DNA of 64,000 nucleotides. Source: an uncultured Acholeplasmatales bacterium (GTDB lineage: Bacteria > Bacillota_I > Bacilli_A > Acholeplasmatales > Anaeroplasmataceae). The translations under genes and the position numbers were made by a program. Every line of letters begins with the position of its first letter. Within the stretch, counting starts at the first letter, position 1. Shown piece by piece: positions 37,700-45,689 of this stretch. The notes beneath the pieces were generated by a model. It saw only the letters and a list, made by a program, of their open reading frames with translations. It searched no databases and was not told where the DNA came from. The DNA lies in assembly GCA_944323055.1 (NCBI GenBank), contig CALUQZ010000001.1, positions 1 through 64,000 of the forward strand. Reading direction: 5' to 3'.

Positions 37700-38386
37700 T
37701 TACATTAATTTTTCCATTAAAATACCAGCAGAGACAGAGGCATTTAAACTATTGACATGTCCTTTCATATTAATACTAACAACATAATCGGATTCTTTTA
37801 AAATAGTTTTACTTATGCCAAACCCTTCACTGCCAATAACTAACACAATATCACGGTCTAAATCAATGTCAGCTATCTTAGTTTTCCCAAATGCTTCCGC
37901 ACTTATAACCCAATAGCCATGTTCCTTTAAATTTCTTAGTGCCGCTAGTAAACTATTAGTATAACAAATAGGTACATATTCAATAGCTCCTGTCGAAACA
38001 TGAGCTACCACAGAAGTAATAGGTACACTTCTATTATTACCTAATATAATACCTTTAAATCCAAAAGCATCGACTGACCTAATAATAGCCCCAAAATTTT
38101 GAGGATCATTAATGCCATCTAGCAATAAAACACGTTTATTCTTTTCATTTGTATAAAAATAATCTAAAGAATAAGTTTTATAATCAGCTCTAAAAGCTCC
38201 AATACCTTGATGTCCTTTACCAAACATATTATCTAATTCTTGTTTAGATACTACTTTATAAGCTAATTTTTTATCGTTTAACAAAGCCATTAATTTAGTT
38301 TCATTAGCACTAATATAAATATCTTTTAAATCAGCGTTATTTAATATTGCTTCCCTAACTAAATTTTTACCATATATTTTAATCAT
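37700..38386 (-). CDS. rlmB: 23S rRNA (guanosine 2'-O-)methyltransferase, SpoU family
   Basis: A 228-residue SPOUT methyltransferase. The N-terminal substrate-binding domain (about 1-75) begins IYGKNLVREA. The catalytic knot shows LLDGINDPQNFGAIIRSVDAF (motif 1, with the key Asn and Arg), VIGSEGFGISKTIL (motif 2) and SLNASVSAGILM (motif 3). RlmB methylates G2251 of 23S rRNA. The start has GAGG and a promoter with an extended -10 at 38414. In Bacillus yacP (NYN nuclease) lies between rlmB and sigH; it is absent here. Confidence 0.93.
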   Translation of the reverse strand: MIKIYGKNLVREAILNNADLKDIYISANETKLMALLNDKKLAYKVVSKQELDNMFGKGHQGIGAFRADYKTYSLDYFYTNEKNKRVLLLDGINDPQNFGAIIRSVDAFGFKGIILGNNRSVPITSVVAHVSTGAIEYVPICYTNSLLAALRNLKEHGYWVISAEAFGKTKIADIDLDRDIVLVIGSEGFGISKTILKESDYVVSINMKGHVNSLNASVSAGILMEKLM

Positions 38387-38442: not shown

Positions 38443-38460
38443 GATGAATGACCTAGCTTT
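38433..38460 (-). terminator. Terminator of the P-type ATPase gene
   Basis: 8-bp stem AAAGCTAG/CTAGCTTT (38453-38460 with 38436-38443), 9-base loop, then TTTTTT on the minus strand. Confidence 0.82.
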
Positions 38461-41400
38461 TAAAATTTAGATAAGATATTTTGAACATTCTTAATTGTTT
38501 GTTTTAACCAAGGTACACATCCTGCTAAAATCTTAATAAATGGACTTGATGCTAAACATAATGTCAATAATATTAAGATAGCTGGAATAGATAATCTTTG
38601 AACAACACCGCCAACTTGAACGCTATAATCAGCTTTATAGTCAGTCTTAAAATCGTTAATAGTTAAATAACCATCTTCTGTAACATTAAAGCTTGTTGAA
38701 GAATCGCCACCAATTGTTAAAACTTCATAATCAGTATATTCACCATTTATTATATATCTACCGGCTACAGATGTCGTAATATTAGGAACTATAATATAAA
38801 CATTAGATGTAACATATTGACTAGTTGTGCTATTAACATCTTTTACTTGATAATAATTACCATTAGCTCTAATATATTCATCATCATATGTTTCAGCCGT
38901 TGATTCATGTTCTAACAATTCTGTTAAACTAGTAACCCCAATCGAAGATAAACTAATATTAGCACCATCAACATACTGCATTGCTTGAGCATCAATTACA
39001 ATATAGCCACTAGAATTAGTTGAAATTGCTGGGTAAGGAACTGTTAAATTAAGTTGTTGACCATCTTCACTAGTATAAGTGTACAATTTGCCATTGATTA
39101 AAACATTTAAGTTTTCATCTAAACTGATAGATTCAATAGAACTACCATCCCATTTATAAATACCGGCTGAGTTATTGCCATTAACTATTAAATAACCACC
39201 TGAACTATTATAAGTAATAGTTGGTAAAATTGAATAATCTGGTTGATTAGCTACTGGTCTAGCTATGCCACTATCATCAATACTAAGTATCGTAATATAA
39301 CCATCACTAGCAATCTCTAATTTAATTTTAGTAGGGTCTTCTGTAAACATAACGGCAGTTGTCGTATATCCACCAGCATATAAATTTCCACTAAAATCAA
39401 CTGATAAACTTGGATCTGCTATTTTGTAATATTCACCATCTTTAGTAATTATATCTGAATTTTGACCGGAATTTAAAGTTAAATAACCGTTTCTTGAACT
39501 AGCACTAATCGTCGTGTAATTAGGAGTAGCCTTTGTATCATATACTACACCATCTAAAACATAATTGTAATCTTCTGATACTTTAACAGAAGGAATAGTA
39601 TCTAATTGAGTAATTTCAACTGTATCAGAAGTATATTCCATAAATTTAAACAATGGTCTTATTTCAAATAAACTAGGTAAGAAAATTATACATAAAACAA
39701 ATAGTGTATAAGATGTACCACAAATTACTTTTCGCAATTTATTAAATGGTCGACAAACTTTAAATAAAACCATTAAACAAACATTTGTTGCTACTATAAT
39801 AATGATAGTTGAAGATGTCAAAAAGTCATAATTTAAATAATCGACTAATTGGAAAGTTAACATCGAACAGACAAGTATCGTTATAGCGCCCGGTAAGGCT
39901 CCTTTTAAAATATTAGGTAAAAACTTACTATCGACCGGATTATTATTAGGCTCTAAGACTAAGAAGAAAGCCGGAATACCTACAACGAAGAAATCAATGA
40001 TAGACAATTGAACTGTACTAATCGGATAAATACCACCACTATTTAAAGCTTGTAAAGCTAGCAAGAAACTAAAAATCGTTTTTGTTAAGAATAAACAAGC
40101 CACTCTAGCTACATTATTAATAACTCTTCTACCTTCTGCAACAACCTTAGGCATCGAATTAAAATTAGAATCAATTAAAACTAAGTGACTAGCATTTCTA
40201 GCTGCCTCACTACCAGAGGCCATCGCAATCGAACAATCTGCCTCTCTTAAAGCTAAGATATCGTTAACCCCATCACCTGTCATCGCAACTGTTTTGCCTT
40301 CACTTTTTAAAGCTTTAACTAAAATTCTTTTTTGATCAGGAGAAACTCTACCAAATACTGTATATCTAGTTGCTGCCCTAACAACATCTTCATCTGACAT
40401 ACCATCTAAAGAAATACAATCTTTAGCATTTAAAATGCCAGCTCTTTCACTAATTTTAGATACTGTTAAAGGATTATCACCAGATATTACTTTAACCTCA
40501 ACACCACTTTCTTTAAAGTAATTAATTGTTTCAATGGCATCTGGTCTTATATTATCTTCTATTAGTATTAAAGCTACTAAAGTTAACTCACCAATCGGTA
40601 AATTACCATCTTCAATATATCCTTCTTTATGAGCTAAAGCTAAAACACGATAGCCTTGTTTTGAATAATTATTAACATCTTTTTTATATTCTTCAAATTC
40701 TTCTTTTAATACAAATTCCGGAGCTCCCATTATAAAAGTTCCATATCTTTCAAAACTAACAGCATTGTATTTTCTTTGACTTGAAAAATTGATTAAAGAA
40801 TGATATTTAATTTTTTTATTAGCACCAAATTTTTCTTCTAACGCTTTAGCTGTTAAATTGCTTTCTTTCAAGGCATTTAACATTCCATTAATAGCTATTT
40901 TAGTCGTAATACCTGCTACATTATTATATTCAATAACATCTTTAACAGACATCGTACCATCTGTAATTGTACCTGTTTTATCTAAACATAAAACATTAAC
41001 TCTAGCTAACATTTCAATACAGTATAATTCTTGTACCATAACCTTGTTTTGAGCAAGCCTAATGACACCTACTGCTAAAGCAACTGATGATAATAACATA
41101 AGTCCTGATGGAATCATACCAACCATTGCTCCAGCTGATTTTCTTATAGATGTTACATAATCTACTCCATTAGCAAAATATTGTACATAGAATAAAATTA
41201 TACCTATAGGTATAATAACTAAAGCCATAAAATAAACAATTAAACGTAATGAGCGTAATAAATCAGATTTTGGCTTTTTATATAATTTAGCTTCTCCAGA
41301 TAAGCGAGATATATAATTATCTTTACCAACTTTATCTACTTTAGCTTTACAAGTACCACTAACTATAAATGAACCACTATATAAAATATCACCAGGTTTT

Positions 41401-42263
41401 TTTAAGATAGCATCACTTTCACCAGTTAACAAACTTTCATTAACTTCTACACTACCATCAAGTAAAATAGAATCAGCTGGTATCTGTTTACCTTGTGATA
41501 AAACAACTATATCATCTAAAACAACATCATTAATAGCAATTTCACTTTGAACACCATTTCGCATAACAAAAGCTGTAGGTGCTTGCATAATTGATAACTT
41601 ATCAATAATGTTTTTAGCTTTAATCTCTTGAATAATACCAATAATAACATTAGCTGTAACAATTACAACAAAAAATAAATCAGTAAAAGCCCTAACAGAT
41701 ATTAAAATACCCGCAATAGCATAAGTTAAAATATTAAAGAAAGTAACTAAATTAGAAAAGATAATCTTTTTTATCGATTTAGTCGAACCTATTTTAGTCG
41801 CATTAACTAAACCATCTGCCTTCCTTTTTGCTACATAATCATCAGATAAACCATAATTAGGATCTGGATTATAACGTTTTAGTTCTAAAGCATCTTCTTT
41901 TTTAATTCTTTTTCTTTCTTCTATTTTAGATTGTTTTTGCTTTTTATAAATGAACTTTTCAATTTTATTAGGAATCTTTTCTTTTTCCTCTGTTACTTTA
42001 ACTTCTTCTGGTTTAGGTAAAATTACCACTTGAGGTTCTTCAATAACTTCTTCAACAACCTCAGGTGTTTCTTCAACTACTAATTCCTCTTTACTTTCTT
42101 CTTCAACAACAGGCGTTTCTGTTTTCTTTTTTCGTTTTGGTTTAGTTTCTTCTTCTGTTTCAACGACTACAACTTCTTGATTTTCTTTTTCCGGTGTTGA
42201 TGAAGGTTTTTTTCTAGTTCTTTTTTTAGGGGTTTCTTCGACAATAAACTCATCTTTAGGCAT
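38460..42263 (-). CDS. P-type cation-transporting ATPase with extracytoplasmic repeat domain
   Basis: A 1,267-residue fusion-like protein. Residues about 1-105 are a low-complexity Glu/Lys/Pro/Val tail (repeated VEETPE). The P-type ATPase core follows: actuator motif LLTGES (about 282), phosphorylated Asp428 in CLDKTGT, hinge MTGDGVNDI (about 660), and membrane helices before and after. It resembles the CtpE/YfgQ-like branch of HAD-type cation pumps; the ion is unknown, calcium being a family guess. Between two late membrane helices, residues about 875-1215 form an insert of about five units of 60-75 residues, each with a GY(L/I)xhN/D core (GYLTLNS, GYITIL, GYLIVNG, GYIVID, GYLTIN). The final helix closes the protein. 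The start overlaps the mrnC stop in TAATG, behind AAAGGAG. The insert is unlike any P-type ATPase I know. Confidence 0.9.
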   Translation of the reverse strand: MPKDEFIVEETPKKRTRKKPSSTPEKENQEVVVVETEEETKPKRKKKTETPVVEEESKEELVVEETPEVVEEVIEEPQVVILPKPEEVKVTEEKEKIPNKIEKFIYKKQKQSKIEERKRIKKEDALELKRYNPDPNYGLSDDYVAKRKADGLVNATKIGSTKSIKKIIFSNLVTFFNILTYAIAGILISVRAFTDLFFVVIVTANVIIGIIQEIKAKNIIDKLSIMQAPTAFVMRNGVQSEIAINDVVLDDIVVLSQGKQIPADSILLDGSVEVNESLLTGESDAILKKPGDILYSGSFIVSGTCKAKVDKVGKDNYISRLSGEAKLYKKPKSDLLRSLRLIVYFMALVIIPIGIILFYVQYFANGVDYVTSIRKSAGAMVGMIPSGLMLLSSVALAVGVIRLAQNKVMVQELYCIEMLARVNVLCLDKTGTITDGTMSVKDVIEYNNVAGITTKIAINGMLNALKESNLTAKALEEKFGANKKIKYHSLINFSSQRKYNAVSFERYGTFIMGAPEFVLKEEFEEYKKDVNNYSKQGYRVLALAHKEGYIEDGNLPIGELTLVALILIEDNIRPDAIETINYFKESGVEVKVISGDNPLTVSKISERAGILNAKDCISLDGMSDEDVVRAATRYTVFGRVSPDQKRILVKALKSEGKTVAMTGDGVNDILALREADCSIAMASGSEAARNASHLVLIDSNFNSMPKVVAEGRRVINNVARVACLFLTKTIFSFLLALQALNSGGIYPISTVQLSIIDFFVVGIPAFFLVLEPNNNPVDSKFLPNILKGALPGAITILVCSMLTFQLVDYLNYDFLTSSTIIIIVATNVCLMVLFKVCRPFNKLRKVICGTSYTLFVLCIIFLPSLFEIRPLFKFMEYTSDTVEITQLDTIPSVKVSEDYNYVLDGVVYDTKATPNYTTISASSRNGYLTLNSGQNSDIITKDGEYYKIADPSLSVDFSGNLYAGGYTTTAVMFTEDPTKIKLEIASDGYITILSIDDSGIARPVANQPDYSILPTITYNSSGGYLIVNGNNSAGIYKWDGSSIESISLDENLNVLINGKLYTYTSEDGQQLNLTVPYPAISTNSSGYIVIDAQAMQYVDGANISLSSIGVTSLTELLEHESTAETYDDEYIRANGNYYQVKDVNSTTSQYVTSNVYIIVPNITTSVAGRYIINGEYTDYEVLTIGGDSSTSFNVTEDGYLTINDFKTDYKADYSVQVGGVVQRLSIPAILILLTLCLASSPFIKILAGCVPWLKQTIKNVQNILSKF

Positions 42264-42634
42264 TATATTAACTCCTTTACTAAACTGATAATCTCTGCTA
42301 ACCTAGTATCTTGTTTTTCTAAATATAAATAGCCAACTAAGGCTTCAAATCCAGTAGCTTCATGATAAGTTTTTAAATCTTTATGAACTGTATGGATTTT
42401 AGCATTACGACCTTTTAGAAAAATCTTAACTTCTTTTTCATTTAATAAATTATTATTTAACAAGTAATTAATGTATGATGCTTCTGCTTTATTGCTGACT
42501 TTAGTAGTAACAAAACTATGCAAATTTTTAGCTTTAACTAAGCCTTTTTCTAAGGCATATCTACGCATATAAACCTCAAATATAGCATCGCCGATATAAG
42601 CTAAAGTAAGACCATTATATAAATCAGAGCGCAT
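42263..42634 (-). CDS. mrnC: Mini-ribonuclease 3
   Basis: A 123-residue RNase III-like catalytic domain without a dsRNA-binding domain. The signature LAYIGDAIFEVYMRRYAL holds the metal-binding Asp. A second motif is TGFEALVGYLYL, with the Glu-Ala typical of RNase III active sites. Mini-III trims 23S rRNA precursors in Bacillus. It lies directly after cysS with a 1-base TAATG overlap, as in the cysS-mrnC-rlmB order of Bacillus. The ATPase gene was then inserted after it. Confidence 0.95.
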   Translation of the reverse strand: MRSDLYNGLTLAYIGDAIFEVYMRRYALEKGLVKAKNLHSFVTTKVSNKAEASYINYLLNNNLLNEKEVKIFLKGRNAKIHTVHKDLKTYHEATGFEALVGYLYLEKQDTRLAEIISLVKELI

Positions 42635-44005: not shown

Positions 44006-45634
44006 TTAGTTATTAAATTGATTTTTAATAAAATCACTAAATTTAGTTAAATCAGAACTTAAATTATTAGGAGCTACTGTAAGATATCCAGATGTTACAG
44101 TAGGTGTTACTTCTTTATATGAAATAATATTGTTGGTAGTTAAAATATTAGAATCTGTAACAGAAGCAATTAAAATACCATAATACATATTATAAGTAGG
44201 CCCTTCTGCTGTATCTTCCTCTGCAGCAGTTGAATCTGCTACTTCTTCAGGACCTTTAATATTTAGAGCATCTAAACTAACTACCGCATTATTAACTAAA
44301 AAGTTATTACCTAATACACCAATTAAACCAGCTATATGAGTTTCATAAACCGGGCTTGCATCAACTGTAATACTACCAGCAAAACCAACATCTTCAAGTC
44401 TTCTAGCTACATTATTATAAGTATTGCCAATAAAACCAGCTACTGTTAAATTGTAATGAGTTAAACCATTTTCATAAGTAGCAGCATCAGCTTTTTTAGT
44501 ATTAACTGTAATTGTACCATTTACAAAACAGTTTGTTGAAGCAGCAGCTGAGAATCCGGCAAAACCACCTACATTGATATCAACCGCATCGGCAATTGAA
44601 CCTCTTATTTCTTGGTTAACTGTCATTGTCACATTAACTAAGTTGTTTTCAATTGTTTGCGTATTTCTAACAGATTGGGCTAAAACAACTTCACCAACTA
44701 AACCACCAACATTAGATTGATGTCTTACATTAGCATTAATTGTTACATTATTTAAAGTTGAATTAGTAATAGCTGTATCATTTGATGTTCCACATAACCC
44801 AACTAAACCACCAACATTTTGATCATATGTTACAGTGTAAGCTGTTGAGCTTGAATTGATAGTACAATCATTTAAAGTCACATTATCAATAACACCTGTA
44901 TTATAACCTACAAGTAAGCCTGTATTCATTTCGCTACTTCTTTCCGTTGTGATAGTAGCATTAGAGATAACTAAGTTACAAATTGTACCATTATTAACCG
45001 CAAATAAACCGTTATATTGATTGTTTGAAGTTATAGTGAAATTAGAAATTGTATGATTATCTCCATCTAATCCACCTTCAAAACGTCTTGTTGATGAAGT
45101 AAAGAATGGATCTATAGCTTCATCTTTAAAATCAAGGTCAGCAGTTAAAATATAATATGCTTCTCTATCATCAGCAATAGCTAAGAATTCATCAGTTGTA
45201 CTAACTTCAATTGGGTTACTTTCTGTTCCTAAATCAGAAGTTTGATGAACTTTATCATATAATGTATAACTTCTACCATCAATTGTAACTGTAATTCTTA
45301 TTGTATAACTTGTATTTTCACTTAAATCATCAAAAACTAATTCATCAGTAACAAAATTACTACCACTAGATAAATCTTCATCTAAAGTAAATGATAAACT
45401 TTCAATTTGATCAGCTACATTATTACCATCCATATTATAAATATAAGCATATGGTGTGTAATCTGTAAATATTCTTTGACTTTCATCTGTAAAATTTGCT
45501 ACTAAAGTCAATTTATTATTACGACTTGCCACATTTAAGCTAGTTTCAATCCCACCTGTACTTGAACATGCTGTTATAACAACAGCTAATAAAAGTGCTA
45601 TAAATAAACCAGCAATTTTTTTTAATCCTTTCAT
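44006..45634 (-). CDS. GLUG-repeat lipoprotein
   Basis: A 542-residue surface lipoprotein. The ATG at 45634 follows GGAGG by 7 bases; an upstream in-frame ATG overlaps this Shine-Dalgarno and is rejected. Signal peptide with lipobox VVITACSS, lipidated Cys near residue 23. A fibronectin-like beta domain follows (about 30-130). Repeats then occur about every 30-40 residues with NGLFAVNNG, TGLLVGYNTG, VGGLVGLCG, VGGLVGEVV and VGGFAGFSA, the GLUG/right-handed helix pattern (about 165-460). The same repeat class lies in the giant surface protein. No enzyme motif is seen; a surface-binding role is inferred. Own promoter and terminator, hence monocistronic. Confidence 0.87.
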   Translation of the reverse strand: MKGLKKIAGLFIALLLAVVITACSSTGGIETSLNVASRNNKLTLVANFTDESQRIFTDYTPYAYIYNMDGNNVADQIESLSFTLDEDLSSGSNFVTDELVFDDLSENTSYTIRITVTIDGRSYTLYDKVHQTSDLGTESNPIEVSTTDEFLAIADDREAYYILTADLDFKDEAIDPFFTSSTRRFEGGLDGDNHTISNFTITSNNQYNGLFAVNNGTICNLVISNATITTERSSEMNTGLLVGYNTGVIDNVTLNDCTINSSSTAYTVTYDQNVGGLVGLCGTSNDTAITNSTLNNVTINANVRHQSNVGGLVGEVVLAQSVRNTQTIENNLVNVTMTVNQEIRGSIADAVDINVGGFAGFSAAASTNCFVNGTITVNTKKADAATYENGLTHYNLTVAGFIGNTYNNVARRLEDVGFAGSITVDASPVYETHIAGLIGVLGNNFLVNNAVVSLDALNIKGPEEVADSTAAEEDTAEGPTYNMYYGILIASVTDSNILTTNNIISYKEVTPTVTSGYLTVAPNNLSSDLTKFSDFIKNQFNN

Positions 45635-45689
45635 TTGAACCTCCATCTATTTCAACAAGAAAAGCTTGTTTTTTTCTTCGCTAGCAAAT

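Follow-up and report, generated by a model that had tools for sequence, protein, structure and literature searches.

A CtpE-related P-type ATPase from an uncultured Acholeplasmatales bacterium with a predicted extracellular hairpin-repeat domain between membrane helices M9 and M10

The window, a 64,000-nucleotide stretch of DNA from an uncultured Acholeplasmatales bacterium, contains a single uninterrupted, ATG-initiated frame of 1267 residues on its minus strand (Table 1). The ATG overlaps the stop codon of mrnC (taATG), and stops occur throughout the plus strand of this interval. Analysis of the translation detected the motifs TGES at residue 280, DKTGT at residue 428 and TGDGVND at residue 662, with the A, P and N domains of a P-type ATPase, and matches to the Pfam families E1-E2_ATPase (PF00122) and HAD hydrolase (PF00702). 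The nearest solved relatives by sequence and fold search included the Ca2+ pumps LMCA1, SPCA1 and SERCA, and the fold search with the pump core also matched a PMCA-neuroplastin complex. These results agreed with a preliminary description of this DNA, in which the three motifs had been read as those of a cation pump. The charged N-terminal tail noted in that description was also detected, with 39 Lys/Arg and 39 Asp/Glu in the N-terminal 174 residues; as a feature particular to this form of the pump it did not stand, being variable in length and present also in orthologues without the insert described below.

An AlphaFold2 model of residues 135 to 1267 (pLDDT 80, pTM 0.58) had ten membrane helices, the same number as P2, P3 and P6 pumps, located at residues 175-189 (M1), 193-226 (M2), 334-364 (M3), 369-405 (M4), 703-741 (M5), 750-769 (M6), 781-810 (M7) and 814-837 (M8), with M9 and M10 as listed in Table 1. 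The insert lay between M9 and M10, at residues ∼869-1217, close to the limits of 875-1215 between two late helices that had been proposed from the sequence. In all P-type ATPases, the domains between M2 and M5 that handle ATP lie in the cytosol and, since the M9-M10 loop comes after the ninth helix from a cytosolic N terminus, this loop is predicted to lie outside the cell, as had been suggested. The strongly negative charge of the loop (46 Asp/Glu versus 18 Lys/Arg) pointed to the same location, and the M8-M9 region and the C-terminal end were basic. Because the remaining external loops of the model were only 3 to 8 residues each, the insert would constitute nearly all of the outer mass of the pump.

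Table 1. Location of the pump gene, its neighbors and the predicted features of the pump in the window
Feature	Position	Strand	Basis or remark
rlmB-type rRNA methyltransferase gene, downstream of pump	37700..38386	-	Name from preliminary description and sequence; conserved neighbor
P-type ATPase related to CtpE/P6, 1267 aa, M9-M10 ectodomain	38460..42263	-	ORF; PF00122 and PF00702; orthologues; fold match to Ca2+ pumps
Membrane helix M10 and C-terminal end, residues 1226-1266	38466..38588	-	AlphaFold2 model
Ectodomain, residues 869-1217 (about), ∼ten beta-hairpin units	38613..39659	-	Alignment; AlphaFold2 model; repeat test
Tenth hairpin unit, residues 1192-1216, DGYLTINDFKTDYKA, conserved base	38616..38690	-	
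Ninth hairpin unit, residues 1162-1180, GRYIINGEYTDYE, conserved base	38724..38780	-	
First hairpin unit, residues 893-911, conserved base	39531..39587	-	
Membrane helix M9, residues 842-861	39681..39740	-	AlphaFold2 model
M6 ion-site residues Asp757 (SERCA Asn796 position) to Val761 (SERCA Asp800 position)	39981..39995	-	
M4-M5 cytosolic loop, phosphorylation and nucleotide domains, residues 406-702 (DKTGT 428, TGDGVND 662)	40158..41048	-	AlphaFold2 model
M4 ion-site motif IPSGL, residues 384-388 (PEGL in CtpE-like pumps)	41100..41114	-	
M2-M3 cytosolic loop, actuator domain, residues 227-333 (TGES 280)	41265..41585	-	AlphaFold2 model
Charged N-terminal tail, residues 1-134	41862..42263	-	Length variable; also in insert-free orthologues
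mrnC, overlaps pump start	42263..42634	-	Name from preliminary description and sequence; conserved neighbor

The ectodomain was also modelled alone by AlphaFold2 with a 29-sequence alignment, which gave a pLDDT of 88 and a pTM of 0.77. Each of about ten units began with a short strand and continued through a loop to a second strand, which a two-residue turn (frequently DG or NG) joined to a third; the units lay at roughly 893-911, 920-938, 953-971, 980-1003, 1015-1037, 1046-1064, 1070-1090, 1131-1156, 1162-1180 and 1192-1216. The beta-type repeats expected from the sequence were therefore recovered as an array of hairpins, in approximately ten units rather than the five first counted. A hairpin profile trained only on pumps of a second lineage (family f19, see below) scored 16.4 bits in the window insert versus ≤6.1 bits in 1000 shuffles, indicating that the repeats are above chance. 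Insertions gathered in the middle units, while the first units and the last two were best conserved and almost gap-free; ectodomain lengths in family f1, to which all the insert-bearing genomes of the order belong, ranged from 289 to 468 residues. No known domain family in Pfam or the PDB accounted for the insert. A Foldseek search of solved structures in the PDB yielded no global match to the ectodomain (best E value of 5e-3, TM scores of ≤0.14 among the matches listed) and a viral model library yielded no match (TM scores of ≤0.14 among the matches listed, with one target-normalised value of 0.15). Pfam gave no convincing match to the window insert, and DUF4988 (PF16378) was unmatched in 19 f1 ectodomains at E values of up to 1.

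The preliminary description had proposed a search for orthologues with the same insert, and these were found in 49 of 160 genomes of the order, all from family f1 (record titles of Acholeplasmatales, Anaeroplasmataceae or looser names) and from six of its seven genera. As the same insert recurs within long open pump frames in six of the seven genera, a frame error or chance gene fusion, which had been named as a potential refutation, was ruled out. A complete pump without the insert was present in one f1 genome (G013), and one basal f1 genus had a pump orthologue without it. The f1 genomes without a match also include G020, in which the frame ends at a contig end just within the insert, G011, with a contig-end fragment, and G006, G010 and G150, which yielded no orthologue or are themselves incomplete. 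Orthologues read from other families of the order had 814 to 949 residues and no insert, and clostridial relatives (718 to 967 residues where complete) likewise had no insert. The orthologues of other Acholeplasmatales families (L021-L030 and L136-L138) shared the operon position, the ion-site pattern and 52 to 62% core identity with the window pump but had a short M9-M10 loop and no ectodomain. A separately encoded copy of the ectodomain was not seen among the 160 genomes, and in a phylum sample without the insert-bearing f19 genomes no further P6-related pump had a long insert (≤974 aa outside f1). Matches to related pumps at G270:C2:17883-20195, G494:C14:1653-3977 and G103:C38:18801-21125 had three in-frame stops apiece and are possibly pseudogenes, sequence errors or matches running beyond the gene end.

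The gene order cysS-mrnC-pump-rlmB was kept across the order, where visible, with or without the insert. The pump gene had been described as inserted into a conserved mrnC-rlmB interval; this claim fell, as insert-free orthologues occupy the same interval across the order, and a recent insertion of the gene was ruled out. Since the same interval holds orthologues with and without the insert, the pump gene is ancestral in the order. Upstream of cysS, the window also encodes a predicted lipoprotein of 546 aa (44006-45646), and lipoproteins of 559 to 586 aa occupy this position in several genera of family f1.

Pumps with an array in the same M9-M10 loop were also detected in f19, another family of the class, in 6 of the 43 genomes of their order. 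These pumps had 1149 to 1184 residues, and their arrays consisted of plain repeats such as GYWYINGKDTNIKA with the motif GYWxINGxxTxIKA. A marginal match of the f19 repeats to DUF4988 (28.7 bits) just missed the gathering cut-off of 30. Comparison of the f1 and f19 arrays by hhalign gave a value of 95.6%, and this result and the profile score of the window insert indicated that the insert carries a related hairpin motif, GYxxINGxxTxxKA. The window array thus resembles the DUF4988 or GYWxINGxxT surface hairpins in motif, and differs from them in sitting inside a pump, whereas those hairpins are located in exported proteins, and in having no Pfam match, to which the f19 arrays alone come close. 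A tree of 68 pump cores constructed with the insert excluded required two changes of the trait, one basal to the f1 pumps that bear the insert and one within f19. The simplest reading of this quick tree of core sequences would be two independent gains at the same loop. The apparent receipt of the same type of surface hairpin on two occasions suggests that L9/10 is a permissive, and perhaps advantageous, site.

Hairpins of this type were found in several other proteins of the same class, described here as read from their sequences. They were present in predicted lipoproteins with InlB-like repeats (L154 and L160, the latter also with collagen-like linkers), in further proteins that have a signal or a membrane anchor (L153 and L156-L158) and in amidase-like proteins (L155 and L159). 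A giant leucine-rich surface protein encoded in an f1 genome (L161, G018:C4:70943-71581), with an open frame of 12,480 aa, also carried them. The occurrence of the hairpins in such proteins supports both an external location of the insert and a role as a surface module.

The relationship of the pump to CtpE was examined at the ion site. Positions in M6 were assigned through an ungapped comparison with a P2A paralogue of the same genome (L135) and are given in SERCA numbering (Asn796 and Asp800). In the window pump, Ser386 of the M4 motif is encoded at 41106-41108 and Asp757 of M6 at 39993-39995. Among the 68 cores, 63 had P[SA]G[LM] in place of PEGL in M4 and exactly those carried Asp or Glu at the Asn796 position; four PEGL pumps had Asn or Ser at this position, and the single further row (L132) had PRGL in M4 and Asp in M6. 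The M4 and M6 states therefore co-segregated in 67 of 68 cores. The Asp800 position was occupied by Ile, Val, Leu or Thr in 67 of 68 cores. Across the whole branch, the ion site has its acidic residue in M6 (Asp or Glu at the Asn796 position) instead of M4 (PEGL), a relocation that bears on the question of what P6 pumps transport and in which direction.

Members of the P6 or CtpE family have PEGL in M4 (PMC5615198, PMC10654040) and a hydrophobic residue rather than Asp at the SERCA Asp800 position of M6, which is Ile in CtpE (PMC10654040). The window pump resembles them in its ten helices, its P-type catalytic motifs and the hydrophobic residue at this position (Val761). It differs in having PSGL in M4, with the acid in M6 instead, and in its ectodomain, as CtpE (791 aa) has no such domain. 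In the 68-core tree, which contained no authentic CtpE, the window pump grouped beside CtpE-like PEGL pumps, which match CtpE in size and come from related genomes, with 41 to 46% identity. Because one P6 feature was shared and another was absent, and because no authentic CtpE was in the comparison, we prefer to label the pump as CtpE-related rather than as a proven member of P6. The CtpE protein of M. smegmatis is a Ca2+ uptake pump (PMC5615198) and all of the 33 ectodomains counted were net acidic, as would be expected if the ectodomain were an acidic antenna by which an uptake pump concentrates or buffers cations, such as Ca2+, at its outer mouth. We consider such a function unlikely: several members were just mildly acidic, the invariant residues of the alignment were mostly Pro, Gly, Tyr and Thr with no conserved cation-binding motif, and the M4/M6 site of this branch differs from that of CtpE.

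Comparison of substitution rates detected dN/dS values of 0.10 to 0.58 for the ectodomain versus 0.015 to 0.095 for the core in the six computable pairs of eight, with synonymous sites near saturation in several of these pairs. Identity to the nearest relative was 60% in the ectodomain versus 87% in the core. As the values were <0.6 in every computable pair, the ectodomain is maintained by purifying selection under a looser constraint than the core; diversifying selection was rejected on values of <1 in all of these pairs. Faster evolution than the core, a variable length and the existence of relatives that do without the domain could also result from a near-neutral expansion, of no specific function, that was tolerated in a permissive loop. 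This explanation seems quite improbable in view of the retention of the insert in 49 f1 genomes, the conservation of the first and last units and the low dN/dS values.

Overall, these analyses strongly predicted a cation pump core with ten helices, the location of the insert, its hairpin array and purifying selection. With roughly even confidence, we infer that the ectodomain is an outward-facing binding or display module for which the pump serves as the membrane anchor. In such a scheme, the outward M9-M10 loop of a pump core that was ancestral to the order and encoded beside housekeeping genes would have expanded to a 350-residue array of about ten hairpin units with ends fixed to M9 and M10, an ectodomain most likely gained once in f1 and a second time, independently, in the f19 pump. 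The first and last hairpins would form a membrane-proximal base and the variable middle would face the environment, where candidate partners are polymers of the host or gut, the envelope of the cell itself or neighboring surface proteins. In favor of this proposal, we counted the ten-helix model, the confidence of the ectodomain model, the P-type fold match, the retention in 49 genomes, the conserved base and indel-rich middle, the gain in f19, the hairpins of surface proteins, and purifying selection on an ectodomain that evolves faster than the core. Against it, we counted the lack of a structural homologue of known function among the PDB and viral matches and the derivation of the two-gain reading from a quick tree.

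The conserved base would fit a regulatory domain equally well, and a coupling of ion transport to sensing or adhesion through the ectodomain, as first proposed, is possible. The Na,K-ATPase beta subunit, CDC50 and neuroplastin bound to PMCA are separate subunits with other folds. In these systems, as in the window pump, an extracellular domain accompanies a P-type pump; the window domain differs in being within the pump chain, in L9/10, and in consisting of hairpin repeats. The ectodomain may be a cis-encoded counterpart of such eukaryotic accessory ectodomains, one that would sit against the outer face of the pump and adjust its folding, affinity or gating, perhaps in response to an external ligand. 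We hold this view only tentatively. In its favor, core helices anchor the domain at both ends, conservation is highest in the first and last units, which lie close to the membrane, the domain is under purifying selection, two gains occurred at the same loop on the simplest reading, and PMCA-neuroplastin was among the fold matches of the core; however, the short outer loops of the model would provide little docking surface, the ectodomain is highly divergent and length-variable, and close relatives manage without it. It is likewise doubtful, if conceivable, that a hairpin ectodomain acquired twice, independently, in the M9-M10 loop detects or binds a ligand outside the cell and adjusts pumping as a bacterial single-chain counterpart of accessory subunits. 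To our knowledge, outer loops are very short in P-type pumps of this kind, and the large ectodomains known from pumps belong to separate subunits. No earlier description of a bacterial pump whose own chain includes a large repeat domain was found in the open-licence literature. These pumps provide a natural setting in which to ask whether a pump can serve as a surface anchor or as a sensor.

Neither the PBP transpeptidase domain (PF00905) nor MraY was found in the window genome (G000) or its genus relatives (G001-G003), and hence these organisms are probably wall-less. Mixed wall genes have been described for the Anaeroplasmataceae (PMC10868615). A role of the insert in compensating for an absent cell wall was unsupported, as other insert-bearing genomes keep PF00905 and/or MraY: at least one of the two was present in the insert-bearing genera g3 and g6, in some members of g5 and in the majority of the f19 genomes with the insert, and both were present in some other genera of family f1.
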